Below, piece after piece: positions 16,555 to 30,831 of a DNA stretch of 31,724 nt (within the stretch, counting starts at the first letter, position 1; every line of letters starts with the position of its first letter). A program made the position numbers and the translations under genes. The notes under the pieces are model-generated. The model worked only from the letters and a program-made list of their open reading frames with translations. It was not told the DNA's origin and did not search any database. This stretch comes from Deltaproteobacteria bacterium (GTDB taxonomy: Bacteria > Myxococcota_A > JAADFL01): contig JAADFL010000044.1 in NCBI GenBank assembly GCA_013152945.1, positions 1 to 31,724 of the forward strand. The letters are read 5' to 3'.

Positions 16555-18783
16555 ATGACTAGTAAGGGCATGAATGAAAAAAAACTGGGATTGCTTGGAG
16601 CCACAGGCATAGGCATTGGGGCCATTGTCGGTGGCGGCATCCTGGCCTTGGCCGGCGTGGCGTTCGCCACTACCGGCCCGAGTGCAATCGCAGCATTTGC
16701 AGGCAACGGCTTACTGGCATTGCTTACAGCCCTTTCATTTGCCGAATTGTCTGCCAGGTTCCCGGAGCCGGGCGGCACGTATACCTTTGCTCGCAAGGTT
16801 CTGACCGTGGAAGCCGCCTTTGCCGTGGGCTGGGTCGTATGGTTCGCATCAGTGGTGGCAGCCGTCCTGTATGCTCTTGGATTTGCTGCATTCCTCGTGC
16901 CGGTACTGGAACACATTTGGACCGCAACCGGTGCTGCACCACCAACATGGCTTGGCAGCCGTTTCACCATGCTGATTTACGCACTTGGTGCAGTGGGATT
17001 TTATACATGGAGCTTGTCACGTTACAGTAGAGGCGGTCGTCCATGGGCTACAATCGGCAAACTGGTCATGTTCGGCATCCTGCTTGTGGGCGGCGCCTTT
17101 ATGCTGGCGATTCAACCGCCGGGTAAATCTGAACTTTCGGCAAGCTTTCGTCCTTTCCTGGCAAACGGCGTACAAGGTTTATTGCAAGCAATGGGCTATA
17201 CCTTCATTGCGTTGCAGGGCTTCGACTTGATTCCGGCGGTTTCCGGAGAAATCAGACAACCAGAGAAAACAGTACCCCGTGCAATGATTGTCTCACTTCT
17301 CACAGCCCTGGCAATCTACCTGCCTCTCTTATTTCTTATCATCACTATCGGCACTCCGGGACGTCCCGTGGCAGAGGTGGCCAGGGACAATCCTGAAATC
17401 ATTGTTGCAACTGCCGCACACAACTTCCTCGGTCCTGTAGGTTACTGGCTTGTGATTCTGGCAGGACTGTTGTCCATGCTTTCGGCACTACATGCCAACC
17501 TCTTCGCAGCATCCCGTTACGCAATGGCAATGGCTCGTGACCGTACGCTGCCGCACCGGTTCGGCAAACTGGTGCCGGGCCGGCATACCCCGGTCCGGGC
17601 GATTAGGCTCACCGGCGCAATGGCGGCCCTTGTGCTGGTCGCAGTCCCTGATGTGGCTGCAGCGGGCGCCATGGCAAGCCTGATTTTCCTTGCAAGTTTC
17701 GCCCTGGCACACGGAATTGCTTACTTGGCCCGGCGCAGGGTCGGCGCAAACAGGGCTTTTCTTACTCCCGCCTTCCCACTTGTTCCGGCTGTCGGCGGTA
17801 CAGCATGTGTTGCCCTGGCATTATTCCAGGCATTGGCGGTTCCGGCTGCAGGGGCCCTGGCCGCGCTTTGGCTCAGCCTGGGCGCAGTGCTCTTTGTTAC
17901 CCGGATCGGGGCAAGGGCCAGGGTTTTCGATGCTTCATCCGAGGCAATGGATCCGCAACTCGTAAAATTGCGCGGACGTAGTCCCCTGGTGCTGGTCCCC
18001 ATCGCCAATCCGGCTAATACAGAGACATTGGTAACAATGGCCAATGCCCTCGCACCGCAGGCAGTAGCCAGAGTGCTGCTTTTATCGGTCGTGCGTCCAC
18101 CCGAAAATTGGGTCAGCGGCGAGCAGCCTCAACAGTTGACTGATGCCCAGTCAATCCTGGGCAGCGCCTTGTCTACGGCATTTGCAGTTAAGTCAGCGCC
18201 CCAGGCATTGATCACGATTGGTGAAGATCCATGGAAAGAAATCGCCGATGTGGCAAGCAGTTACAGGTGTGAAAGCCTGTTGCTCGGCTTGGGGAACCTT
18301 GAAGAAGACCTTATGACCGGACCGCTGGAAAAACTGATAAGCGAGGTTGAAACAGATGTTGTAATACTCCGCGCGCCCGGTCGCTGGGATCCTAAGTCTG
18401 CGGAAAACATACTTGTACCGAGCGGCGGCAGGAGGGACCAGAGTCCCATCCGTGCACGCCTGCTCGGCAGCATTTGCAGGTCAGGCAAACACGAGGTTAC
18501 CTATCTACGGGTCCTGACTGAAAACCAGGACGCTGAAACCGAAATCCGAATAAAGCGAGAGCTAAAGAAATTGGCCCGCGACGAAGCACCGGGAATAAGC
18601 CACGTGGAAGTCTTTCACAGTCAGGATCTTGTGGCTAAAATCACGGATAGGGCCCGTGCAAGCGATTTATTGATACTGGGGCTGCAGCGACTCGGACGAC
18701 GCAACAAGGTATTTGGAGAGCGGGTGCTCGAAATTGCCCGCCGCACGGATTGTCCACTAATGATGATCAGCCGTCGCAGTTAA
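16555..18783 (+). CDS. APC-family amino-acid permease with a C-terminal tandem universal-stress-protein-like region
   Basis: The 742-residue protein has two parts. Residues about 10-440 form an APC-superfamily permease of about 12 helices: GLLGATGIGIGAIVGGGILAL is the substrate-binding start of helix 1, and ELSARFPEPGGTYTFARK the conserved loop after helix 2. Residues about 471-742 are cytoplasmic and resemble two USP domains (starts near LVLVPIANP and ENILVPSGG); the second ends in the typical CPLMMISRR strand. USP domains often bind ATP and may gate or regulate transport. ATG 16555 has a poor ribosome-binding site; ATG 16570 with TAAGGG is an alternative, removing five residues. The substrate is not determinable. 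Confidence 0.87.
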   Translation: MTSKGMNEKKLGLLGATGIGIGAIVGGGILALAGVAFATTGPSAIAAFAGNGLLALLTALSFAELSARFPEPGGTYTFARKVLTVEAAFAVGWVVWFASVVAAVLYALGFAAFLVPVLEHIWTATGAAPPTWLGSRFTMLIYALGAVGFYTWSLSRYSRGGRPWATIGKLVMFGILLVGGAFMLAIQPPGKSELSASFRPFLANGVQGLLQAMGYTFIALQGFDLIPAVSGEIRQPEKTVPRAMIVSLLTALAIYLPLLFLIITIGTPGRPVAEVARDNPEIIVATAAHNFLGPVGYWLVILAGLLSMLSALHANLFAASRYAMAMARDRTLPHRFGKLVPGRHTPVRAIRLTGAMAALVLVAVPDVAAAGAMASLIFLASFALAHGIAYLARRRVGANRAFLTPAFPLVPAVGGTACVALALFQALAVPAAGALAALWLSLGAVLFVTRIGARARVFDASSEAMDPQLVKLRGRSPLVLVPIANPANTETLVTMANALAPQAVARVLLLSVVRPPENWVSGEQPQQLTDAQSILGSALSTAFAVKSAPQALITIGEDPWKEIADVASSYRCESLLLGLGNLEEDLMTGPLEKLISEVETDVVILRAPGRWDPKSAENILVPSGGRRDQSPIRARLLGSICRSGKHEVTYLRVLTENQDAETEIRIKRELKKLARDEAPGISHVEVFHSQDLVAKITDRARASDLLILGLQRLGRRNKVFGERVLEIARRTDCPLMMISRRS

Positions 18784-18876: not shown

Positions 18877-21324
18877 TCAGGGCCGGCGGGGTCTGGGGCC
18901 ACGAGGCGAAATGACGAGCCATAATGCCAATACAAGGACAGGCCAGCCGGTAAAGCCGAAACCGGTTTCAGCCGCGCAACCGCATCCTTGAGAACCGGAA
19001 CTTGAGTTACGGCCGCCCTCTTTCGCGCCAGAGCCATCGGTTGCCACCTCTTGTTCCCGGTTTTCGGAAAATGTCTCATATTCATCGAACTCGACTACCG
19101 TGTCGTCGTTGCTGTCCGCTTCGGACTCCAAGCGGGCATCCCCTGGTTGCTCCTCTGCATAGCCTTCAGGTGGAAGCTCCAACTCCGGCCATTCGAACTC
19201 GGCACCTTCTTGCGGCAAGGTGATCTCGGCCGTATTACTGGGTTCTGACCTTCCTGCCGCATTGAATGCCATGACCCTGAAGGTATAGGTTTGTCCATGC
19301 TCCAGGTCACCCAGCAAAAAGCTCGCTTGTGCGATTCTTCCAACCTCTGACCAGGAAGGACTCGGCACGAACACGTAACATGTACCGTCGTAAACACCGT
19401 CGTCACAACCCAGCGTAACCTGTCCGGCCTTCTCTTTGTGCATCTTCCATATCTTCCAACCCGAAAGCACGCTTGAGTCGCAGGTCATACCGGCATCAAT
19501 CCAGGCAGGCCCCATCCATGATGCCTTCGCGCCATTGTATCTCGGATCCAAGGGTAGGTATACGTCGCAACCTGACGACACCTGAACCACGTACTTACTG
19601 TTCAACGGCGGCTGTTGCCTGTCGTTCCTGGCAGTAAGCAGCCTGGTCATGCCCCGGAGTTCCTCCGGCACCCTGGACCAGGTGTCGGACCTGTCGTTCA
19701 CAACGAGTGCTCCTTCTTTAAAAGAGTTTTCAGAGCCCTTCACCTCAACGGTCGGATACGTGTTCCCGCCATTATACTCTGCAAGATCAATCGACAAATC
19801 CGGTGTCCCGGCAAGACTCTCCACGATAAAGCCATCCTCACTGTCAGAGTTGTCTTTCCATTCGAGCAAAACGCGGTCCGGGCCCGCAAGCCTGGCCGTC
19901 AGGCCGGTGGGTGCCATGGGTGGACCAATTCCGGATATTGTGCTTGCCTCATTTGATTGTTCTCCCTCCATGCCCGCACCGTTCACTGCTGAAACCTTGT
20001 AGTAATAACCGGTCTTGGCCTTCACGGCCTTGTCAACGTACGTGGCGGGGCCCTGCACCGAAGCCAAAAAAACCTCTTCCCCCGGGGATTGCGATCGGTA
20101 GATCCTGTATCTTGACACTCCTGTCTCCGGGTCCGCAGCCGCGTCCCAGGTCAGCACGATCTTTGGACCGTCCTCACCCAAGGCGGAAAGGTTCGACGGT
20201 GCCGAGGGTGGAGTCGAGTCGATGCCTCCCGCCGCTTCCACCAATAGGCGTAACACCTCGTTTAAAGGATGAGGCTCACTTGGGTAACTGTCCAGCTTGG
20301 TGTCATTCCACGATAGGACGATGTCCAGCTCGGGAACGACCGCCATCCCCCTTTTCCCATTCTTGTGCCCGAGACAGGTAAAGGTGTGCTCGGGACCGTC
20401 AGGCCACATGCGTTTTCCGTCACGGCCAACGCCGTTTATCCACCAGAGCCATGAGTACGAGCCGTCGTGATCCGCCTGGTTGTCCGGCACGGCGGTGGAG
20501 CCTATTGTACGCTGGCCGGAAATCATGTCTGCGGCATGGGCGGATGTCCTTGGTATTGACAACGGCAATGGGCTGGACACGGCCATGCGGGCATGTTCCT
20601 TGCTAATGATCTGGACACCGTTCCAGTTTCCCTCGCGCAGGTACAAGAGTCCCAGCCTGCAAAAGTCACGGGGGGACACTGCCAGGCGACCTGCCCTGTC
20701 CCTGGTCCCAAAGGCCATGAACGTGGGCGAATCCTGGCAACCAATCTTGTCCGACAACAAGGGATGGAACACGGTTGTGTCCACGTTGTCGTACGTTGCG
20801 CCGTAAACCTTTAGGAAGAGTGTATCCCAGAACAGGGCCATCTGCCAGTCGTTGTAGTCAAATGCAGTTCCAGGTTTTTCGGTGACTCCATAGCAGGATA
20901 TTTGGTTGGCCAGGTGCCTGAAAGTAATGTCCCTGTCCTTGTAACCCAGGGACGAGTTTATCTGGCCCAGCCTTGGTTCGAAGTCCATAGCCTTTGTATC
21001 CAGGCTCTGCAGGCGTCCTTGCTCGACCGCCATAAACAGAAAGGTGCTGTACCATGGCTTGGCGGCCGAGGCCACGTCACCTCTCCGCTTGTAGTCCCCC
21101 CATGTGTAGACCATGTAACCATGGCGTGTGATGCAACCCCTGCCGCCCAGGTACCCGGCGATACCGTCCAACTTGCCCTTGTCCAGGCCCACCTGAGCCG
21201 GAGTCCGTGTTTCCCAGTCCGTTCCCGGGAAGACTTGGGCAACTGCTGTTGGGGTATACGCTACCGCGAGTAGAGACACCATCATGAGTGCGTCGAGAAT
21301 AATACCTTCCAAGTGTGATCTCAT
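18877..21324 (-). CDS. Secreted serine hydrolase (class C beta-lactamase fold) with FN3 modules and MYXO-CTERM-like tail
   Basis: The 815-residue precursor has a signal peptide ending near AVA29. Residues about 35-365 are a penicillin-binding-protein/class C beta-lactamase fold, like 6-aminohexanoate hydrolases: nucleophile motif S86-A-A-K89, Y157-x-D159 in place of Y-x-N, and GHKNGKRGMAVVPELDIV (319-336) at the third motif. An FN3 domain follows (about 371-467). A second FN3 seems split: its start is 468-503 and its end 666-704, with about 160 residues between. Next is an acidic linker, then Gly-Cys-Gly-Cys, a helix and PRGPRPRRP. AAAGGAG precedes ATG 21324. It is separated from the ABC importer by 135 bases. 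The substrate is unknown; esterase, amidase or peptidase activity is equally possible. Confidence 0.83.
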   Translation of the reverse strand: MRSHLEGIILDALMMVSLLAVAYTPTAVAQVFPGTDWETRTPAQVGLDKGKLDGIAGYLGGRGCITRHGYMVYTWGDYKRRGDVASAAKPWYSTFLFMAVEQGRLQSLDTKAMDFEPRLGQINSSLGYKDRDITFRHLANQISCYGVTEKPGTAFDYNDWQMALFWDTLFLKVYGATYDNVDTTVFHPLLSDKIGCQDSPTFMAFGTRDRAGRLAVSPRDFCRLGLLYLREGNWNGVQIISKEHARMAVSSPLPLSIPRTSAHAADMISGQRTIGSTAVPDNQADHDGSYSWLWWINGVGRDGKRMWPDGPEHTFTCLGHKNGKRGMAVVPELDIVLSWNDTKLDSYPSEPHPLNEVLRLLVEAAGGIDSTPPSAPSNLSALGEDGPKIVLTWDAAADPETGVSRYRIYRSQSPGEEVFLASVQGPATYVDKAVKAKTGYYYKVSAVNGAGMEGEQSNEASTISGIGPPMAPTGLTARLAGPDRVLLEWKDNSDSEDGFIVESLAGTPDLSIDLAEYNGGNTYPTVEVKGSENSFKEGALVVNDRSDTWSRVPEELRGMTRLLTARNDRQQPPLNSKYVVQVSSGCDVYLPLDPRYNGAKASWMGPAWIDAGMTCDSSVLSGWKIWKMHKEKAGQVTLGCDDGVYDGTCYVFVPSPSWSEVGRIAQASFLLGDLEHGQTYTFRVMAFNAAGRSEPSNTAEITLPQEGAEFEWPELELPPEGYAEEQPGDARLESEADSNDDTVVEFDEYETFSENREQEVATDGSGAKEGGRNSSSGSQGCGCAAETGFGFTGWPVLVLALWLVISPRGPRPRRP

Positions 21325-21459: not shown

Positions 21460-22314
21460 TTACCCCTTAACACTTCCTGCCGTTAGGCCGCTTACCAGGT
21501 TTTTTTGCAATGCAAAGAAAAGGACCACAACCGGAATCGAAACCAGTATGGAACCTGCTGCAAAATGTCCCCATTCCGTATGATATGCGCTCACATAGGA
21601 TTGGATTGCAACAGGCAAGGTGTACATCTCTTCCTTGCTCATGAATGTTGCTGCAAGGATGAACTCATTCCATGCAGTCATGAAACTGAACAAGGCGGTA
21701 ACAGCAATCGCAGGTTTTGCAAGAGGCAACATGATTGTCCAGAAAATCCTGAAGGTGGATGCTCCGTCTATCCTGGCCGCATCTTCAAGTTCCCTGGGAA
21801 TCGTATCGAAGTATCCCTTGAGCATCCAAACACAAAAGGGAATTGCGGTAGTGGAATATACCAGGGCCAGTCCCAACAACCTGTTTAACAGGCCGAGTCT
21901 GTCCATAATCACGTACAAGGGTATCATCATCAGAGTGCCTGGAAACATTTGTGTAACCAGGAAAGCCATCAACCCCTTTTCCCTTCCGGGGAACCTGAAC
22001 CTGGAGAATGCGTATGCAGCCGTGCATGCCAGCAGCACACCAAGCAGAGTGGTCGTGCCGGCAACCAGTGTGGAGTTAATAGTCCACCTTAGAAAGAGGC
22101 TTTTACCGTTCCTGTCTTGTTTTGTGAGCAGGTCCTTGAAGTTATCCAGCGTGGGTTCCTCGGGAATGGGGTTCAATGAAAGAGTGAAACCCTGTGTGCC
22201 GGTCAGGGACAACTTCACCACCCACATGACCGGGTACAGGGTCGCAACCGTAAAGGCAACAAGGAATAGATGCGTTACGAATTTCTTTCCTATTCCGCGT
22301 CCGCTTCCGGCCAT
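21460..22314 (-). CDS. Carbohydrate ABC importer permease, MalG-like
   Basis: The 284-residue inner-membrane protein has six predicted helices. It has the EAA loop that docks on the ATPase (E177-DAARIDGAS), followed by the MLPLAKPAIAV strand-helix typical of MalG. It forms the transport channel together with the MalF-like partner. The chosen start, ATG 22314, has AAGGGAAGGG upstream and gives the usual MalG N-terminus. The TTG at 22341 overlaps the upstream stop but has no ribosome-binding site. Substrate is probably an oligosaccharide from the family, but this is not shown by the sequence. Confidence 0.88.
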   Translation of the reverse strand: MAGSGRGIGKKFVTHLFLVAFTVATLYPVMWVVKLSLTGTQGFTLSLNPIPEEPTLDNFKDLLTKQDRNGKSLFLRWTINSTLVAGTTTLLGVLLACTAAYAFSRFRFPGREKGLMAFLVTQMFPGTLMMIPLYVIMDRLGLLNRLLGLALVYSTTAIPFCVWMLKGYFDTIPRELEDAARIDGASTFRIFWTIMLPLAKPAIAVTALFSFMTAWNEFILAATFMSKEEMYTLPVAIQSYVSAYHTEWGHFAAGSILVSIPVVVLFFALQKNLVSGLTAGSVKG

Positions 22315-22337
22315 GTGATTGCCCTTCCCTTTCTTTC

Positions 22338-24314
22338 TCAAGTCTTCTGCATGCTACTTTGCGTGGCCCTTGTAAGCCTGCTTGTAACAAGAGTATAGGC
22401 CAGGAGTATTACGAATATTACACTCGAATAGGCTGCGGCATATCCGTACCGGTCTCCCCGTTCAAAGGCCCACCTGTAGGCCTCTGTTATCAGGATGTCG
22501 GTTGCACCCGAAGGCTCACCACCTGAAACCAGGTAGATTATATTGAACTGGTTGAAGGTCCATATCGATCCGAGAATGACCGCCGGGAACAATGCAGGCT
22601 TGAGCAACGGCAAGGTAATGCTCCGGAAACGCCGCCACCTGCCTGCGCCGTCCACCTTGGCTGCCTCGTACAATTCGGACGGTATACTCTGCAAGGCTCC
22701 GAGCGACACGACCATCATGAACGGAAATCCGAGCCATGTATTTGTTACGAGGTTCGCTGTGAACGCGGTAGCAAAACTGCTGAACCAGGCTACACCGTCA
22801 GGTCCTGTCAATCCCAGGCTTGCGAGCAATGCATTGATCGCCCCGAATTGCTGGTTGAACATTCCCTTCCATATCAAGGCGGTGACATAGTTCGGGATGG
22901 CCCATGGCAATATCAACAACACGCGGTAAACCGCCTTCATTCTTAAAAAAGGGCTTTTCAGGATCAGGGCCAGGGCCAGTCCGATGCTCACATGCAATAC
23001 CACGTTTGCCGCTGTCCAGAGTATGGTGACCAAGAGTGTGAAATAAAAGCTCAACGGATTGGTTATCGGCCGGTTTTCCGAAAGGAGAATGTCCCTGAAA
23101 TTTGTTATTCCAACAAAAGAAAAGGTGCCTCCCGAATGCCTAAAAAAGCTCAAGCCAATACCAAAGGCAAAGGGTGCAAGCACGAGCATCAGCATTCCAA
23201 GGCCTGCAGGTGCTGTATATGCATAAGCAGCGGAATGCTTGGCAAGTGCTGAAAATGCCCTGCCTGCCCTTCCGGTCGCTCCCCATGCATATATCAACAA
23301 CGCCAACAACAGCAGAGGCAACAAGATAACAGCCTGGCTGTTTCCTATCTCGCGCCTGTTCTCAGGCTCGACATTTACCTTGAGAACACCGTTGAAAGGA
23401 CTGATATTCAAATGCGGATCCAGGCGACCGTCCAGCCCCGTGCTCATGTCCTCGGCCAGGCCCTGCAAATACCTGTTCGATCCCGGCAAGGTGAAAATTA
23501 TTGATTGGGCCGTAGATTCCATCCGGATCGAAGCCCTTGCCTCCATCTTGCCCGCAGATGCAAAATAATCATTCAAAACCGCATACCAGGCCCCCATTGC
23601 CACGGCCGCAATCAGTATGAAAGCACTCACGCCCCGAGCCCTGGGCGCCGCCCAGGCAAATGCAGTAAAGATGGCCATACCGAATACAACGGCTGCAGCA
23701 AGAGGCATGAAGGGAACAGGCCTGGTATGCAAGACCGGTGTAGCCTTTACATGAACCGTGAACACGTGTCCTGCAGCATCTTTTCTGGCGACCACTACCT
23801 CGATTGTCTTTCCAATGCCCGGTTCATCATACTCTTTCATCAATGCAGGCCCGGGTTGGTGCCTCCCTCTTTTGAGGCCGAACACCACTTTTGTCCTTTC
23901 ATCATGCAATCTCTTGTCGCTGTAAGATCTCGGGTCTAGGGGTACGCCGGTCCTGGATGAATCCGTGCTCGCAATGAAGCGTTCCCGCCTTCGAAACGGC
24001 AGCGGATCATCCTTGGTTTCGGAAATCACATTGATCGACAAGATACCGGGCGATGTCTTCTTCACCTTTTCAAGCAATGCGGAAAGCCGCTTAATTCCAA
24101 GCTCGTCATAGCCTGCGAGCACAGATGCCCGTGCAAGGCCCCTGGCCTGTGCCAGGAAACACCTGCCGTCCAATTCAGCCGCCCTTATTGCTTCCTGTCT
24201 TTTCTCGATTACACCGGCCCCGGCTGTAATGACGGTCACACCGATAAAGAAAGCAATCAGGGCTCCCCTTGCACTGGAATTCCCGTTTCCTGCAGATCGA
24301 TTATCCACGGTCAA
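22338..24314 (-). CDS. MalF-like ABC permease with an extra N-terminal membrane and Cache-like extracytoplasmic half
   Basis: This 658-residue protein is about twice the length of ordinary MalF-type permeases. The C-terminal part (about 365-650) is a standard sugar permease with its EAA loop Y549-EAAKVDGAGRW. The first 340 residues are extra: a helix at 17-36, an extracytoplasmic region (37-200) whose layout (LLEKVKKTSPGILSINVIS then FIASTDSSRTGVPLDP) resembles Cache-type sensors, helices near 202-222 and 229-247, a second exposed region (about 248-327), and a helix at 328-346. Unlike E. coli MalF, whose insert is a loop between helices, this one is N-terminal. TTG 24314 has AGGAG eight bases upstream, overlapping the ATPase-gene stop; GTG 24308 is an alternative. 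Confidence 0.83.
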   Translation of the reverse strand: MTVDNRSAGNGNSSARGALIAFFIGVTVITAGAGVIEKRQEAIRAAELDGRCFLAQARGLARASVLAGYDELGIKRLSALLEKVKKTSPGILSINVISETKDDPLPFRRRERFIASTDSSRTGVPLDPRSYSDKRLHDERTKVVFGLKRGRHQPGPALMKEYDEPGIGKTIEVVVARKDAAGHVFTVHVKATPVLHTRPVPFMPLAAAVVFGMAIFTAFAWAAPRARGVSAFILIAAVAMGAWYAVLNDYFASAGKMEARASIRMESTAQSIIFTLPGSNRYLQGLAEDMSTGLDGRLDPHLNISPFNGVLKVNVEPENRREIGNSQAVILLPLLLLALLIYAWGATGRAGRAFSALAKHSAAYAYTAPAGLGMLMLVLAPFAFGIGLSFFRHSGGTFSFVGITNFRDILLSENRPITNPLSFYFTLLVTILWTAANVVLHVSIGLALALILKSPFLRMKAVYRVLLILPWAIPNYVTALIWKGMFNQQFGAINALLASLGLTGPDGVAWFSSFATAFTANLVTNTWLGFPFMMVVSLGALQSIPSELYEAAKVDGAGRWRRFRSITLPLLKPALFPAVILGSIWTFNQFNIIYLVSGGEPSGATDILITEAYRWAFERGDRYGYAAAYSSVIFVILLAYTLVTSRLTRATQSSMQKT

Positions 24315-24325
24315 TCTCGATTCTC

Positions 24326-26851
24326 CTATTCCCTTTCGCCGCTTGCTTTTTCCCTGGTTGTCTTGTCGCCCGATCCGGGATTGCCGGTAACCGTTATGTA
24401 CCTCCTGATTTCATCGACAGCATCCAGGATGGCCTGACGTGGCTCCATCCTGCCTGAATTGGAATTGCTTAGTGCCCTGTCCATTGGTGTCCAGACGAGT
24501 CTCATGGCAGGAATGTTGGGCATGAGCACCGAACGATCCACTTGTGCCCGAAACACGGCCAGAACCGGGTCTTTCCTTGCCTGTTTGTTATTGTATGGTT
24601 CGATATTCGCTACGTTCTGACCTGCCTGAAGCAAACGGAACAAGGCGCTTTCGTCCGTAGTGAGATATTCAGCCACCCGGAACGCTTCTTTCTTGACCTT
24701 TGATCTCGAGGAAATCATGAAGCCTTCTGCCGTCAGGAACGGCATTCCGGGTATGCCCGTGGAATCGACCTCCGGCAGCAATGCAACACCGTACTTGATC
24801 TTTTTCGAGATCTGCCCCCTGAACCACGGGCCGCTTATCACCATGGCGGCTTTACCCTGGTTGAATAACGCAGATGTCAGGACAGCATCGACTTCAGGCG
24901 GCACAATCTTTGCCTTGTTGCGTATCCATGAAATGAATTTGAAAGATTGCAAAGCCCCTTTTGATGGGATGGCCAGCCTTCCCTTGTCATCGAAAATCCT
25001 TGCGCCGTAACCATGGAACCACACTGAGTGAAAAAACAGCTTGTTGTACTCGTATACAAGGCCGAATTTCTTCTTTTTCCTGTTTGTCAACTTTTTTGCC
25101 AGCTTAATCATTTGACTGGTGGTGGATGGAGGAGTGTTTACCAGTTTCCTGTTGTAATACAAGGCCAAGGTCTTGAAGGCAACAGGAAGACCGTACAACG
25201 ACCCCTTGTAGGTGAGAGCTTCGAGCGTCTTTGGAAAGAAACGCCTGGTAATTCTTTCCCCGGTCCAGAATTCTATGGGCTCGATGAGCCCGGCGTCAGC
25301 CCAATCGCCTACCCGGTCGTGCGCAAACAGGAACAGGTCCGGGCCCTGCCCTCTCGGCAATGCGGCATTCAGCTTGTCCACGAAAGAATCGTATGGAATG
25401 GCAAGGCTCTCCACCAATATCTTTGATTGGACCTGGTTGAACCTGGAAATCAGCTTTTCCAGGGCCTTTTTTTCCTGGTCCTGGTAACTATGCCAAAGAA
25501 CGACATGTTTTCTCGGCGCCGGTTCTGCCTCAAGTGGTTCTTCGCCGGTTATTCCCTGGTCCGGGCCCGGAGGCAGGGTGAAGTAAACCAGGCCCGCGAA
25601 CAGCGCAAGAAGCAGGATCACCGCCACCTTGGGCCAAAAAGAGGTGACCCGGCCCGCCTTGGTCTTTGTCTTTACGCCTGGACCGGCTTTTGTCTTTTCC
25701 GCAGGCTCGTTATCCGTGTCCGCACTCTTTACTGCCGGAACTTCCGTCCCTGCAGGCTCGGAAAGCAGGGACCGTCTCGTATCCTTGTCAAAAAGATGGA
25801 TCTTATCTTCTAATGGAACAAGTCCGACGGTCTCACCGACTTTCGGCGCTTGCTCGGGAGCAAGCCTCACTGTGATGCCGGTTTCGCCCACCATGCCTGT
25901 AACCATGACCTCTGCGCCCATTTGTTCGACGACCTCTACCCGGCAGGTGATCAGGGATTCGTCATCATTGGATTTTGCAAGCCTGAAATGTTCCGGCCTG
26001 ATTCCCATTACGAGGTTCCTGGATCCTTGAGATGCCACGGCCTTTAGCAGCTTTTTTGGAACCGGTATGCAAAATCCTTCGCCTAGAAGGGATGTTTCCG
26101 GCCCCGTACCCATGACTTCGGATGGCAGAAAATTCATGGACGGCGAGCCGATAAACCCTGCCACGAACGCGTTGTGGGGCCTGTTGTATACCTCCATTGG
26201 ACTGCCTACCTGCTGTATCTGCCCGTTATCGAGCACAACGACCCGGTCCGCCAAGGTCATTGCCTCGACCTGGTCGTGAGTGACATAGATCATGGTGGCC
26301 CCGAGTTGCCTGTGCAGGCGTGCGACCTCGGCCCGCATCTGGACCCTCAACTTCGCATCCAGGTTGGACAATGGTTCGTCGAACAGGAACAGGGAAGGTT
26401 TTCTAACTATGGCCCTTCCCATTGCCACTCTTTGTCTTTGTCCGCCGGACAAGTCTTTGGGCAACCTGTCGAGCAGTTCATCAAGTTCCAGGATCGCAGC
26501 CGCTTCCTCAACCCTTTTTTTAATCTCTTCGCGATCAAATCTCTTCAATCGGAGCCCGAATGCCATGTTCTGGTAAACGGTCATATGAGGGTACAGGGCA
26601 TAAGACTGGAATACCATTGCTATATCCCTGTCCTTGGGTGCCAGGTCGTTTACCAGCTCATTACCTATCCAGATTTCGCCGTTTGTTACGCTTTCCAGTC
26701 CTGCAATCATCCTCAAGGTGGTTGATTTTCCACATCCTGAAGGGCCTACCAAGACCACAAGCTCGCCATCGGAGATATCCAAATCAGTGGGTTTAACCAC
26801 CAAAAAATCGCCGTACTTTTTTTCAACCCCTAATAGCCTGACCTGGGCCAA
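24326..26851 (-). CDS. Fused ABC importer ATPase (MalK-like) and membrane-tethered solute-binding protein (MalE-like)
   Basis: One open frame of 841 residues joins two normally separate subunits. Residues 1-365 are a complete MalK-type ATPase: Walker A GPSGCGKST (36-44), Q82, signature LSGGQ (134-138), Walker B ending D158-E159, H192, then a TOBE-type regulatory end. A Lys/Glu/Pro-rich linker (about 366-404) leads to one helix (405-426), then an acidic Pro-rich spacer and a MalE-like binding protein (448-841), with VLWHSYQDQEKKALEKLI and GKAAMVISGPW. The helix puts the ATPase inside and the binding domain outside. The start is TTG 26851 with AAGGAG; it yields MAQVRLLGVEKKYG, the usual MalK beginning. 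A GTG at 26890 is less likely. The stop overlaps the ribosome-binding site of the MalF-like gene. Confidence 0.9.
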   Translation of the reverse strand: MAQVRLLGVEKKYGDFLVVKPTDLDISDGELVVLVGPSGCGKSTTLRMIAGLESVTNGEIWIGNELVNDLAPKDRDIAMVFQSYALYPHMTVYQNMAFGLRLKRFDREEIKKRVEEAAAILELDELLDRLPKDLSGGQRQRVAMGRAIVRKPSLFLFDEPLSNLDAKLRVQMRAEVARLHRQLGATMIYVTHDQVEAMTLADRVVVLDNGQIQQVGSPMEVYNRPHNAFVAGFIGSPSMNFLPSEVMGTGPETSLLGEGFCIPVPKKLLKAVASQGSRNLVMGIRPEHFRLAKSNDDESLITCRVEVVEQMGAEVMVTGMVGETGITVRLAPEQAPKVGETVGLVPLEDKIHLFDKDTRRSLLSEPAGTEVPAVKSADTDNEPAEKTKAGPGVKTKTKAGRVTSFWPKVAVILLLALFAGLVYFTLPPGPDQGITGEEPLEAEPAPRKHVVLWHSYQDQEKKALEKLISRFNQVQSKILVESLAIPYDSFVDKLNAALPRGQGPDLFLFAHDRVGDWADAGLIEPIEFWTGERITRRFFPKTLEALTYKGSLYGLPVAFKTLALYYNRKLVNTPPSTTSQMIKLAKKLTNRKKKKFGLVYEYNKLFFHSVWFHGYGARIFDDKGRLAIPSKGALQSFKFISWIRNKAKIVPPEVDAVLTSALFNQGKAAMVISGPWFRGQISKKIKYGVALLPEVDSTGIPGMPFLTAEGFMISSRSKVKKEAFRVAEYLTTDESALFRLLQAGQNVANIEPYNNKQARKDPVLAVFRAQVDRSVLMPNIPAMRLVWTPMDRALSNSNSGRMEPRQAILDAVDEIRRYITVTGNPGSGDKTTREKASGERE

Positions 26852-26886
26852 TGCAATCTCCTTTTTTAACAATTGTTCACCCGGAT

Positions 26887-26996: not shown

Positions 26997-27986
26997 TCAA
27001 GCGTGCTTGACGAATCTTTTGCCGTGTTCGAGCACCTCGACTATCTTTTCTTCTTTCACAAGACCGGCAACTACGGCGGCAATCTCTTCACGATCTTCCG
27101 ACAAGGATGCGGCAAGGTTTTCTACTGTCTCCGGTCTCCTGCTCACAATCTCCAGGACACGCTCCGCCAGGGCCTGCCTGTCAGTATTGCTTGTAGTCTT
27201 TGCATGTCTGTTTTTAGCATTCCCGTCGGCATTTCCGGGCCTGAAATCTGCAATCGCCTTTACATCCGTTCCACTCTTGCCGATAATTCCTACAGCCTTG
27301 TCAAGCACTTCCAAACAAGCCTTTTTCGCCCACTCTTCAGAACCCGGCCTTGCAACCGTGTTCAGTTGGACCTGGTCAGGCTTTATCCTGTCTATTGCAC
27401 GGGCAAGCTCTTCAAGGTGATTCTCCTGGTCGTTCAACCCGTCTACCAGCAATATCTCGAGCCAAATCTTACCCGGGTACTCCTTTCTAAACCGTACCAG
27501 ACCCTCGATTATCTCTTTGATGTCCAGGCTTGGAACAGGCCTGTTCACGAGTCTGAAGATCTTTTGATTTGCTGCATCCAGGGATGGCAGGACCACATCC
27601 AGGTCCAAGAGCCTCTCCCGCACCTTTGGATCGCTGAACAAGGTTGAATTTGTCAACAAAGCAAGTGGAGTTGCGGTTCGCTTCTTCAAGTAATCGATTA
27701 TATCTTTAATCTTGTTGTTGAGCGTAGGTTCTCCATACCCGGAAAAGGTTATGTACTCCGTTTCCACGCCTGATTCGAGCCAGATGCCCAGTTCCGTGAT
27801 TACACTTGCCGCAGGAACCCACTCGGCCTGCTTGATAGTCTTCTTGTCTGTCTTTTTGACTTCACAGTAAACACAATCAAGGGAACAGACCTTTTTCGGA
27901 ACCAGATCAACGCCAAGTGAAAGGCCGAGCCTGCGGGATGGCACGGGTCCGAACAGGTATTTGTACTTTGTTATTGGTTCTTTCAT
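26997..27986 (-). CDS. Radical SAM protein with C-terminal winged-helix-like region
   Basis: The 329-residue protein has the radical SAM cluster C34-x3-C38-x2-C41 (KKVCSLDCVYCEV), followed by a Gly-Glu-Pro loop (FSGYGEPTLN). The N-terminus LFGPVPSRRLGLSLGVDLVP identifies the COG0731-type family of wybutosine-synthesis-like proteins. The C-terminal part (about 260-329) looks like a small winged helix. The reaction is not known for such bacterial members. ATG 27986 overlaps the beta-helix gene stop by four bases (ATGA), showing translational coupling. A role in tRNA modification or in regulating the glycan block are both speculative. Confidence 0.85.
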   Translation of the reverse strand: MKEPITKYKYLFGPVPSRRLGLSLGVDLVPKKVCSLDCVYCEVKKTDKKTIKQAEWVPAASVITELGIWLESGVETEYITFSGYGEPTLNNKIKDIIDYLKKRTATPLALLTNSTLFSDPKVRERLLDLDVVLPSLDAANQKIFRLVNRPVPSLDIKEIIEGLVRFRKEYPGKIWLEILLVDGLNDQENHLEELARAIDRIKPDQVQLNTVARPGSEEWAKKACLEVLDKAVGIIGKSGTDVKAIADFRPGNADGNAKNRHAKTTSNTDRQALAERVLEIVSRRPETVENLAASLSEDREEIAAVVAGLVKEEKIVEVLEHGKRFVKHA

Positions 27987-29806
27987 GTTTGTTTTCTCTT
28001 GTTGCGCCTCGAAAATAACGTTATCAACAGGACAAAGAACAGGTTTTCCATGGCCAGGCCATTACCTTGCATGCTTCCAGAGCAACCGCACGAGCCTGTT
28101 GGGCCGCCACTATTGGAAATTTTGTCGTCATTTCGCTTAGTTGTATCCGTTTCCTCATCTGATATCTTGTCAATACCGTCTAACTTAATAATATCACTAT
28201 CGATATAAGCTTGTTCATTGGAATGTTCACCTTCAATACCATTGTCTGCATCTACGTAATTCTGCTGGTCGCCTGCATCTGCGCTGTTCTCGGCAGCAAA
28301 TTCGTTTTCAGGATTGATTTCTGCCTCGCTTGCAACCTCGTTATGAACTTCCTGTTGCTTGCAACCACCGGGCGGGCAGTACTCGAAGGCCCCGAGATCG
28401 ATTGTTCCCCGAGCAGGCCGCGGTTCACCCGATTGGTGCAGCACGTATTGCTTCAATACAGGGTATTTTTCCGCAGCCCGGGCCAATGCTCCCCCTGCGT
28501 CGATTGCCGCCGATTCCGGGGCCAAACGAAAGTCCTGACCTGATAGATCGCTAAAACCCGGACTATTACCTGTCAGGTTTTCTCCATTATCCACGATTTG
28601 GCCATTGAAGTTGTCGTGTGAATTTCTCCAGCCTGAATTCAGCCAGTTATGAGACATGAGCAACACTCCGTTCGAGGCCAATAACGCAAGCCTGGAACCG
28701 CCTGCTGTTGCATAGACTATGTTGTTGCGCATGTCGCAATGCTCGTCATTGGTCGACAGGCGGACAAGTGTGGTGTTCCCGTTTCTTGTTGACACTATCG
28801 TGTTGTTGTAGAGGTACAGAGTTCCCTTCCGGTATATGGACGTATCTCCACTATCGCCGCCGTAGTGGATTATCTGGCTGTTGCCCTCCCCTTCCGCCTC
28901 GACCAGTACGTTTCCGTAGACGAATGTGCTGCGATACGCCGGGTCGTCAGGCACTGCCCGGCTGTCTTCGCCATCCACCAAGTCGAGTTGGCGATTGCCG
29001 TTCTCTATCCAGTTGTAACGCACCACCAGGCCTGCGGACCGGTCTTTCAGGTTATTACCAAGGCAGCCCTTTCGAAGCGGCCCATAGTGATTAAACTGAA
29101 AAATTATACCCCTGGCGGACGTATAGCTGTTGTGCTCGTAAATGTCGTTTTCGATTCCATTGTCGTACAGGTAGTTTCCTTCCACGAGTATATCTCGTGT
29201 CTCGCCGTTGAATACGCCTATGAACAAGCCGTTGCCCGAGTCGTGCAGGACACAATTTCTTATGGTGATGTGCCTGCCTACCTCAATGTATATGGATGCC
29301 GCATTCTTGTCGTAAGCTGTGGACCCGTTCCTGCCCGTAAACCTGTATGGCGGCCTGCCTGACCGAATATCGAGGTTTTCGATTGTTATGAAGCTCGGGA
29401 CACATGCCGGCGGATCGCAGGCAGGATGGTTTGCCCCGCCGATCTTTACAATGCCTCTGGACCCGTTCCAGAAATTGAGCCCGGACCTGGTGGTCGCATC
29501 CCTGCCGTCTATTACGGGCAGTTCCTTGTTAGGTCCTGCGATGCCCCTAATGACGAGAGGTTGCTGCTCTGTCGCTTCGGTTGTAATGATTATCTTGCTC
29601 TTGTAAGGCTCGGGCCGCCAATGGACCAAAACCCTGTCTCCTGGAGCCAAAGACTCCCATGGAACCTTATCCAGGTCTTCAAGGGCCTGGCCCGGGCCGA
29701 CTTCATAAGTTGCAGCCCAAACCGGGCTTGCTGAAAACAGGCACAAAAACAGAATCACAAGCTCGAGTCCTGTTTTGTAACAAGGCAAATGTCTCGTTTT
29801 TATCAT
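27983..29806 (-). CDS. Secreted right-handed beta-helix protein with MYXO-CTERM-like tail
   Basis: The 607-residue precursor has a signal peptide (cleavage near VWA31). Residues about 120-450 repeat the short strand-turn pattern of parallel beta-helices, with many Asn-ladder steps such as IENLDIRSG, IRNCVLHDSG, VEGNYLYDNG and LYNNTIVST. This fold is shared by polysaccharide lyases, epimerases and glycosidases, so a carbohydrate substrate is likely, but catalytic residues cannot be assigned. An acidic linker (about 480-565) leads to a tail with Gly-Ser-Cys-Gly-Cys, a hydrophobic helix and a RRNKRK end. GAGGGG lies upstream of ATG 29806. It is the first gene of the block ending in the ABC importer. 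Confidence 0.83.
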   Translation of the reverse strand: MIKTRHLPCYKTGLELVILFLCLFSASPVWAATYEVGPGQALEDLDKVPWESLAPGDRVLVHWRPEPYKSKIIITTEATEQQPLVIRGIAGPNKELPVIDGRDATTRSGLNFWNGSRGIVKIGGANHPACDPPACVPSFITIENLDIRSGRPPYRFTGRNGSTAYDKNAASIYIEVGRHITIRNCVLHDSGNGLFIGVFNGETRDILVEGNYLYDNGIENDIYEHNSYTSARGIIFQFNHYGPLRKGCLGNNLKDRSAGLVVRYNWIENGNRQLDLVDGEDSRAVPDDPAYRSTFVYGNVLVEAEGEGNSQIIHYGGDSGDTSIYRKGTLYLYNNTIVSTRNGNTTLVRLSTNDEHCDMRNNIVYATAGGSRLALLASNGVLLMSHNWLNSGWRNSHDNFNGQIVDNGENLTGNSPGFSDLSGQDFRLAPESAAIDAGGALARAAEKYPVLKQYVLHQSGEPRPARGTIDLGAFEYCPPGGCKQQEVHNEVASEAEINPENEFAAENSADAGDQQNYVDADNGIEGEHSNEQAYIDSDIIKLDGIDKISDEETDTTKRNDDKISNSGGPTGSCGCSGSMQGNGLAMENLFFVLLITLFSRRNKRKQT

Positions 29807-30045
29807 CTATATTACCCCTCTGGTTACTTGCTTACCGGCCAGGTTGAAATCTTCAAGCTGTTTCAAGATATGACATACATCCGATTCACGAGACAGATCA
29901 AGCCACAACCCGCATAGCCGTATTATTCGAAACCACGGGCAATGAAAAAAATATTTGTGCAACATGCAGAGTAATGCGGAGATCTTGTCCTCCTTGTATT
30001 ACAGGGAAATTTCTGCGAAAATAAAACAACATGTCAGGAGACCGG
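29807..30045. other. Divergent intergenic region
   Basis: These 239 bases separate the beta-helix gene from the lipoprotein gene on the other strand and should hold both promoters. No consensus -35/-10 pair stands out on either strand. A short repeat of TTGAAA and TTTCAA elements is seen near 29845-29875, too weak to call as an operator. Confidence 0.3.
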
Positions 30046-30831
30046 ATGAAGACAAGGATAAAGAAACATGGTTTCCATTCAGGAAAAATCGCAGGTTTCA
30101 TATCCTACATCTATACTTCCATTAATTATTCTTTCTTGGTCGCTGCCTATCTTGTACTAATGTCTTCGACCCCGGGCTGCTCGGACAATACAAGGTGCAA
30201 GGTTGACAAGGATTGTTCCGCTTCCCTGCTCTGCCGCGAAGGGCATTGCGTGGATCCCTCGAGGATTTGTGGAGACCGACTCTGCCCCGAGGGACAGGAA
30301 TGCATGGATGGTAAATGCAAGGTCCCCTTGTCCGAAGAAATGCCGGCTGAAGAACAAGGCGAGGCTGATGCAGAATCAATTACAGAAAAAGGCGCGGAGC
30401 ACGATGCAGAACAAACTGCAGACCAGGCGGACAAGACAGGTGAATCATACAGCGATACTGACACTGATACAGATACTGATACAGATACGGATACTGATAC
30501 GGATACTGAGGATACTGATACGGATACTGACACAAATACAGACACAGGCTCGGACAGGGACCAAGACTCTGTCCCTGACAGCACTGATAACTGCCCTGAC
30601 GTTCCGAACAGGAGCCAGGAAGACACTGACGGCGACGGCCTCGGTGATGCGTGTGATCCAAGGTACAGAGAGTTCGATTATTCACTTACCGGAAGTCTCA
30701 TACCTGCGGCAGGGGGAACATCCGGAACACAGGATTATTCCATGTTCTCGAGAATACCTGCCGGGACCGGCAAGGCCATGAGTGACGGCAATTACACCCT
30801 TGTCGGCGCAATTTTCAGTGGTTGTCATTAG
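30046..30831 (+). CDS. Cys-cassette lipoprotein with Asp-Thr stalk and thrombospondin type 3-like Ca-binding repeat
   Basis: The 261-residue precursor has a long n-region and hydrophobic segment ending in Thr-Pro-Gly-Cys45, a probable lipobox. A four-Cys cassette and a second shorter one follow (about 50-85). An acidic linker and an Asp-Thr stalk (137-167) come next. DQDSVPDSTDNCPDVPNRSQ and DTDGDGLGDACD (about 171-202) form a thrombospondin type 3-like Ca2+ repeat. The C-terminal 55 residues contain a GNYTLVGAI strand found at the end of other exported proteins. ATG 30046 has AGGAG upstream; ATG 30031 is in frame but lies before it. The next gene starts 11 bases on. Confidence 0.78.
   Translation: MKTRIKKHGFHSGKIAGFISYIYTSINYSFLVAAYLVLMSSTPGCSDNTRCKVDKDCSASLLCREGHCVDPSRICGDRLCPEGQECMDGKCKVPLSEEMPAEEQGEADAESITEKGAEHDAEQTADQADKTGESYSDTDTDTDTDTDTDTDTDTEDTDTDTDTNTDTGSDRDQDSVPDSTDNCPDVPNRSQEDTDGDGLGDACDPRYREFDYSLTGSLIPAAGGTSGTQDYSMFSRIPAGTGKAMSDGNYTLVGAIFSGCH
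30454..30546 (+). repeat. Hexanucleotide tandem repeat encoding (Asp-Thr)n, copy 3
   Basis: The 93 bases encode alternating Asp and Thr with single Glu and Asn interruptions. It uses GAT-ACT and GAT-ACA units more than the GAC-ACC units of the other tracts. It is the shortest of the three, and the only one followed directly by a Ca-binding repeat. Confidence 0.93.

Follow-up and report, generated by a model that had tools for sequence, protein, structure and literature searches.

On the minus strand of the window (the whole stretch of DNA analyzed, 31,724 nucleotides), one gene encodes a MalK-type ATPase and a MalE-like solute-binding domain, with a predicted membrane helix between them, and genes for two permeases follow it. 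The features of this region, all on the minus strand, are as follows:

24326–26851, minus: fused MalK–TM–MalE gene, 841 aa with a TTG start (open reading frame and translation, Pfam domains)
26858–26863, minus: Shine-Dalgarno-like AAGGAG, read from the sequence, with the TTG start 6 bases downstream
25766–26851, minus: MalK part, residues 14–375, an ABC ATPase followed by an OB/TOBE regulatory domain (ABC_tran, OB_MalK, TOBE_2; PDB MalK chains)
25628–25765, minus: inner linker, charged and of low complexity, 46 residues (376–421, from the codon listing), modeled as disorder
25571–25627, minus: single predicted membrane helix, residues 422–440 (Kyte-Doolittle), a low-confidence helix in the model
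25508–25570, minus: outer linker, short and acidic, 21 residues (441–461, from the sequence)
24386–25507, minus: MalE-like solute-binding domain of the SBP_bac_1/SBP_bac_8 type, residues 462–835 (SBP_bac_1, E = 8.7e-33, 115 bits)
22338–24314, minus: malF-like permease, 658 aa (BPD_transp_1), starting 11 bases past the fused gene
21460–22341, minus: malG-like permease, 293 aa (BPD_transp_1), overlapping malF by 4 bases

Residues are numbered in the translation P0001, which begins at GTG 26890; numbering from the TTG start is obtained by subtracting 13. The minus-strand frame is free of stops from GTG 26890 down to the stop at 24326, and the plus-strand frame at 24326–26851 contains many. Within the open frame, TTG 26851 is the likely start codon, because the AAGGAG motif precedes it at this short distance and MalK relatives start there. 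Pfam domains in P0001 were ABC_tran (33–174), OB_MalK (248–302), TOBE_2 (296–367), and SBP_bac_1 (473–748), all above their curated cut-offs. A first-pass annotation of this DNA had described an ATPase, a linker, a helix, and a binding domain in a single stop-free frame at 24326–26851; open reading frame analysis, Pfam, and hydropathy confirmed this arrangement and its coordinates, with the strand corrected to minus. That a frame of more than 840 codons with two full-length domains in register arose by chance is out of the question.

Both halves carry the hallmarks of intact proteins. The MalK half matched PDB MalK chains with E values of 1e-105 to 1e-121, and the translation contains intact ATPase motifs (GPSGCGKST, the LSGGQ signature, LFLFDEP, and THD), as the first-pass annotation had stated in general terms. 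A MalK-type C-terminal domain is also present, with OB_MalK scoring 44.1 bits against a cut-off of 27 and TOBE_2 scoring 40.5 bits against a cut-off of 21. Residue 375 lies near the end of the relatives’ MalK, and the binding domain begins at 462. When each half was aligned with more than 110 relatives, there was no deviation at any column conserved at ≥95%, be it the 90 such columns of the MalK half or the 26 of the MalE half, in agreement with the earlier description of both domains as complete. The two halves show no marked break in GC or GC3.

A structural model was built from residue 376 onward using 54 sequences. In this model, the binding domain reached a pLDDT of ~97, with low confidence for the linkers and the helix. 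The modeled binding domain aligned with the maltodextrin-binding protein 2zyk_A over 373 residues at 2.4 Å (VIA-align Z of 45.5), and with 6ffl_A, the MalE domain of Bdellovibrio bacteriovorus, at a Z of 43.8. Because maltodextrin-binding proteins are the closest structures solved, the substrate is likely to be maltodextrin. A full-length AlphaFold model, made from a five-row alignment of relatives read through from K across the stop into E, had too low a quality for further use (mean pLDDT 46), and an alignment combining K-only and E-only rows was dropped as it laid the two halves over each other.

The junction between the halves was then examined. Strong hydrophobicity occurs in the fused protein only at residues 413–443, with a core at 422–440 that has a 19-residue Kyte-Doolittle mean of 2.47. 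Of the 23 residues that precede the helix, seven are K/R, and on its other side come D/E residues, a charge pattern that fits an orientation with the N-terminal side inside and the C-terminal side outside. The topology proposed from the first pass, with the ATPase inside and the binding domain outside, agrees with this pattern, which is a property of the sequence alone. The helix occupies the position of the relatives’ signal peptide and is probably a descendant of the MalE signal peptide, judging from the sequence. Among the MalE N-termini of 130 relatives, an AxA-type motif follows the hydrophobic core in 80 and a lipobox-type motif in 40. A motif search of the fused protein found no [AVST]xA in residues 430–455 and no lipobox cysteine after the helix. 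In lipid-anchored relatives, 7 to 107 residues (median 27) separate the lipobox-like cysteine from the domain, and the outer linker is of plausible length, since its 21 residues fall inside this range.

The probable origin of the helix raises the alternative that the single chain is cut near it by signal peptidase or another protease, such that MalE is released and MalK is left with a membrane tail. Cleavable signal peptides are found in most relatives, which favors such processing, but the missing cleavage motifs speak against it, as does the hydrophobic core, which is stronger than that of all but 3 of the 130 relatives. We therefore regard cleavage as improbable and favor an uncleaved helix.

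The codon listing shows no in-frame ATG, GTG, or TTG between residues 370 and 421, and the first GTG lies within the helix. Separate translation of the binding domain from a normal start codon, together with a signal sequence, is thus not possible. Having no start codon before the helix also means that more has happened here than the loss of the malK stop ahead of a complete malE.

To place this architecture among its relatives, we surveyed related operons. Loci that recurred between searches place the genome in the phylum of the Myxococcota records. Among ~160 related loci checked by open reading frame, this locus alone has a K–E fusion; the search for other proteins with an ABC ATPase, a helix, and a binding domain in this order, as suggested in the first-pass annotation, thus returned none from these loci, and the description of the arrangement as unusual was well founded. 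No uninterrupted full-length match was found in ~1,300 scanned genomes, a figure to be read with the limit that, where open reading frames were unchecked, a fusion could be missed if its halves were listed as two matches. The matches in the survey came from outside the source’s own genus and family. In 57 relatives and 377 genomes of the source phylum, G045 was the sole near full-length match, and there a TGA parts K and E. Across 80 loci from GTDB species of several phyla, 44 had separate K E F G genes, 7 had an E–F fusion, and none had a K–E fusion; of the source-phylum loci read in detail, 28 of 60 had an E–F fusion and none a K–E fusion. The 349 genomes of Pseudomonadota (the phylum of a Microbulbifer record) yielded no uninterrupted full-length match, and none of 16 suspicious places in that phylum proved to be a fusion when their open reading frames were checked. 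Four long matches came from 247 genomes of an Acidobacteriota record’s phylum and 193 of a Bdellovibrio record’s phylum, in all of which a stop at the boundary keeps the genes separate, and no match above threshold was seen in 124 genomes of a Cloacimonadota record’s phylum. Long open frames crossing stops also appeared among the best matches listed (G003, 825 aa), and checking the suspicious ones by open reading frame gave no fusion. On plasmids, the best places covering both halves were annotated as two genes. The K–E architecture is so far known from one genome.

MalE–MalF fusions are common in this survey and span several phyla, including in Microbulbifer (L044:4614–6887, L046:4095–6518, L098:2875–5496, and L218:2650–5193, among others). 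The trees of the two halves gave slightly different placements with weak to moderate support: the MalK half grouped with L034 and L127 (support 82), and the MalE half with L086, L101, L164, and L167 (support 85); we base no conclusion about the origin of the fusion on this difference. In L034, L127, and L145 the genes run E K F G as opposed to K E F G; two of these, L034 and L127, lie nearest to the MalK half in the tree.

K and E share a frame in many relatives and are sometimes parted by a single stop. Examples with malK and malE in the same frame, a stop between them, and no fusion are L033:1070–3766, L042:5418–7952, L102:5288–7855, and L215:1471–3906. With a shared frame and one stop between, fusion is a short step, and one sighting of so short a step suggests, although from limited sampling, that the K–E fusion is rarely kept. 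The same closeness lends some weight to the possibility that the join was introduced in error during sequencing or assembly, and that in the real genome a stop parts malK from a malE gene of its own. All of the relatives have two genes, and the fusion is supported by only one of the 218 contigs in a draft MAG. Correcting one base could give back the stop, but it would leave malE with no start before the helix and no cleavage motif after it. Nor does base composition mark a boundary between the halves, and a repeat-driven misjoin is unlikely because the junction DNA is found only once in the genome. Taken together, we consider an error of this kind to be unlikely. In all homologues examined, the two proteins are encoded by two genes, an outcome that the first-pass annotation had named as one that would refute the fusion; we do not take it as a refutation because this locus has neither the stop nor a malE start codon nor a cleavage site for the signal peptide. 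For a genuine fusion, the simplest history would be that the malK stop, the malE start, and the cleavage site were all lost, by which the signal peptide would have turned into an anchor.

Downstream of the fused gene, the two permeases have MalF and MalG as their best NCBIfam matches, both below the equivalog cut-offs. The MalF-like permease (22338–24314) has an N-terminal extension of ~345 residues ahead of the conserved permease domain. There is no separate solute-binding protein (SBP) gene in the mal operon, and no second ATPase gene adjoins the fused gene. Elsewhere in the genome there is only one other SBP_bac_1/SBP_bac_8 gene, which lies on a different contig and so leaves no obvious free substitute for the tethered domain. 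Elsewhere in the window, 16555–18783 encodes an amino acid permease (AA_permease) that carries a universal stress protein domain (Usp) at its C terminus. Two large secreted-type proteins (18877–21324 and 27983–29806) have ends that resemble MYXO-CTERM sorting signals, with a Cys-rich motif, then a hydrophobic helix, and last a basic tail. In a lipoprotein-like protein at 30031–30831, a long run of Asp-Thr repeats (DTDTDTDT...) leads into a DxDxDG stretch that resembles a calcium-binding motif.

The content of the operon bears on whether the binding domain is external at all. In the cyanobacterial proteins NrtC and CmpC, an ABC ATPase is followed in one chain by a C-terminal SBP-like domain, which is cytoplasmic and regulatory and has no membrane helix; these systems have a separate SBP, NrtA or CmpA, and NrtC and CmpC are partnered by a second ATPase, NrtD or CmpD (PMC11349869, PMC6603209). 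They provide a precedent for a regulatory SBP-like domain behind an ATPase, by which the binding domain described here would remain in the cytoplasm as a sensor of the ATPase (PMC11349869, PMC6603209). However, those systems retain a secreted SBP, and none is encoded in this operon, the only other such protein being that on another contig; in addition, a strong hydrophobic helix with positive-inside charges stands ahead of the domain. A cytoplasmic sensor is accordingly the least probable of the alternatives and, in our view, very unlikely.

We consider it probable that malK and malE have merged in a MalFGK2-like importer, and that the uncleaved helix anchors MalE outside, with two copies per transporter. 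With only slightly less confidence, we propose that this represents a new importer design, in which an external binding domain hangs from the ATPase by its own helix, and the MalK dimer fixes two receptors and provides a physical link across the membrane between receptor and motor that bypasses the permease. MalFGK2 is known to work with a pair of MalK subunits bound to MalF and MalG, while a single MalE at a time docks on the outside. In the fused importer, the MalK dimer would sit in the cytoplasm beneath MalF and MalG, and from each MalK C-terminus a flexible linker would lead to the membrane helix, formerly a signal peptide and now a signal anchor, and on to MalE in the periplasm. Given that MalK forms dimers, each importer would carry two permanently attached MalE domains, 1:1 with the ATPases. 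The tethered domains could alternate in docking on MalF/MalG, and ATP hydrolysis would be set off by MalE in its closed, loaded form, by analogy with E. coli. Expected effects would be a high local receptor concentration, no pool of free receptor, and a ratio fixed at 1:1. In this scheme, we infer that the gene is expressed, how the protein lies in the membrane, its dimer stoichiometry, its substrate, and that it transports.

If true, such a fusion occurring in nature would supply the one type of attachment still missing for binding proteins, that to the ATPase. It would also make it possible to test whether type I import depends on tethering and a receptor:ATPase ratio fixed at 1:1, as opposed to the site of attachment. 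The operon family, with its separate, E–F, and K–E states, would form a natural series for this question of attachment.

Binding proteins have so far been found free, lipid-anchored, or fused to the permease. The system described here shares with E. coli MalEFGK2 a MalK with OB/TOBE, a MalF, a MalG, a MalE-fold domain, and adjacent genes. MalE of E. coli is a free periplasmic protein with its own gene, whereas the MalE domain described here is connected to MalK by a membrane helix. A MalE–MalF fusion is known in Bdellovibrio bacteriovorus, and we take the 6ffl binding domain to be part of that protein, with which the PDB names agree. The E–F fusions of Bdellovibrio, Myxococcota, and others are like the present protein in belonging to the same transporter family and in having a permanently tethered binding domain. 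They differ in that the domain is on the permease MalF, with one per transporter, and not on MalK, where there would be two if MalK dimerizes. OpuA and GlnPQ have binding domains covalently attached to the permease, with two or more per importer (PMC11065425, PMC8025302). In those systems, attachment is to the transmembrane subunit and involves other SBP families, whereas here an SBP_bac_1 domain is on the ATPase and malF is a separate gene.

The first-pass annotation had named only permease fusions as precedents. NrtC and CmpC need to be added to these, since both are ATPases that carry an SBP-like domain at the C terminus, in the same ATPase-then-SBP order as the fused protein. Unlike NrtC and CmpC, the fused protein has a hydrophobic helix (422–440) between its domains and a binding domain of the SBP_bac_1/SBP_bac_8 type, and it has neither a separate SBP in its operon nor a second ATPase gene beside it. 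In the literature searched, mostly papers outside subscription, we found no description of a protein with an ATPase, a helix, and an external SBP. The fused protein shares its order with NrtC and CmpC and its tethering with OpuA, yet lacks a defining feature of each; on its sequence, it is therefore filed as a putative component of a MalEFGK2 (type I, CUT1) importer with a new attachment of the binding domain.
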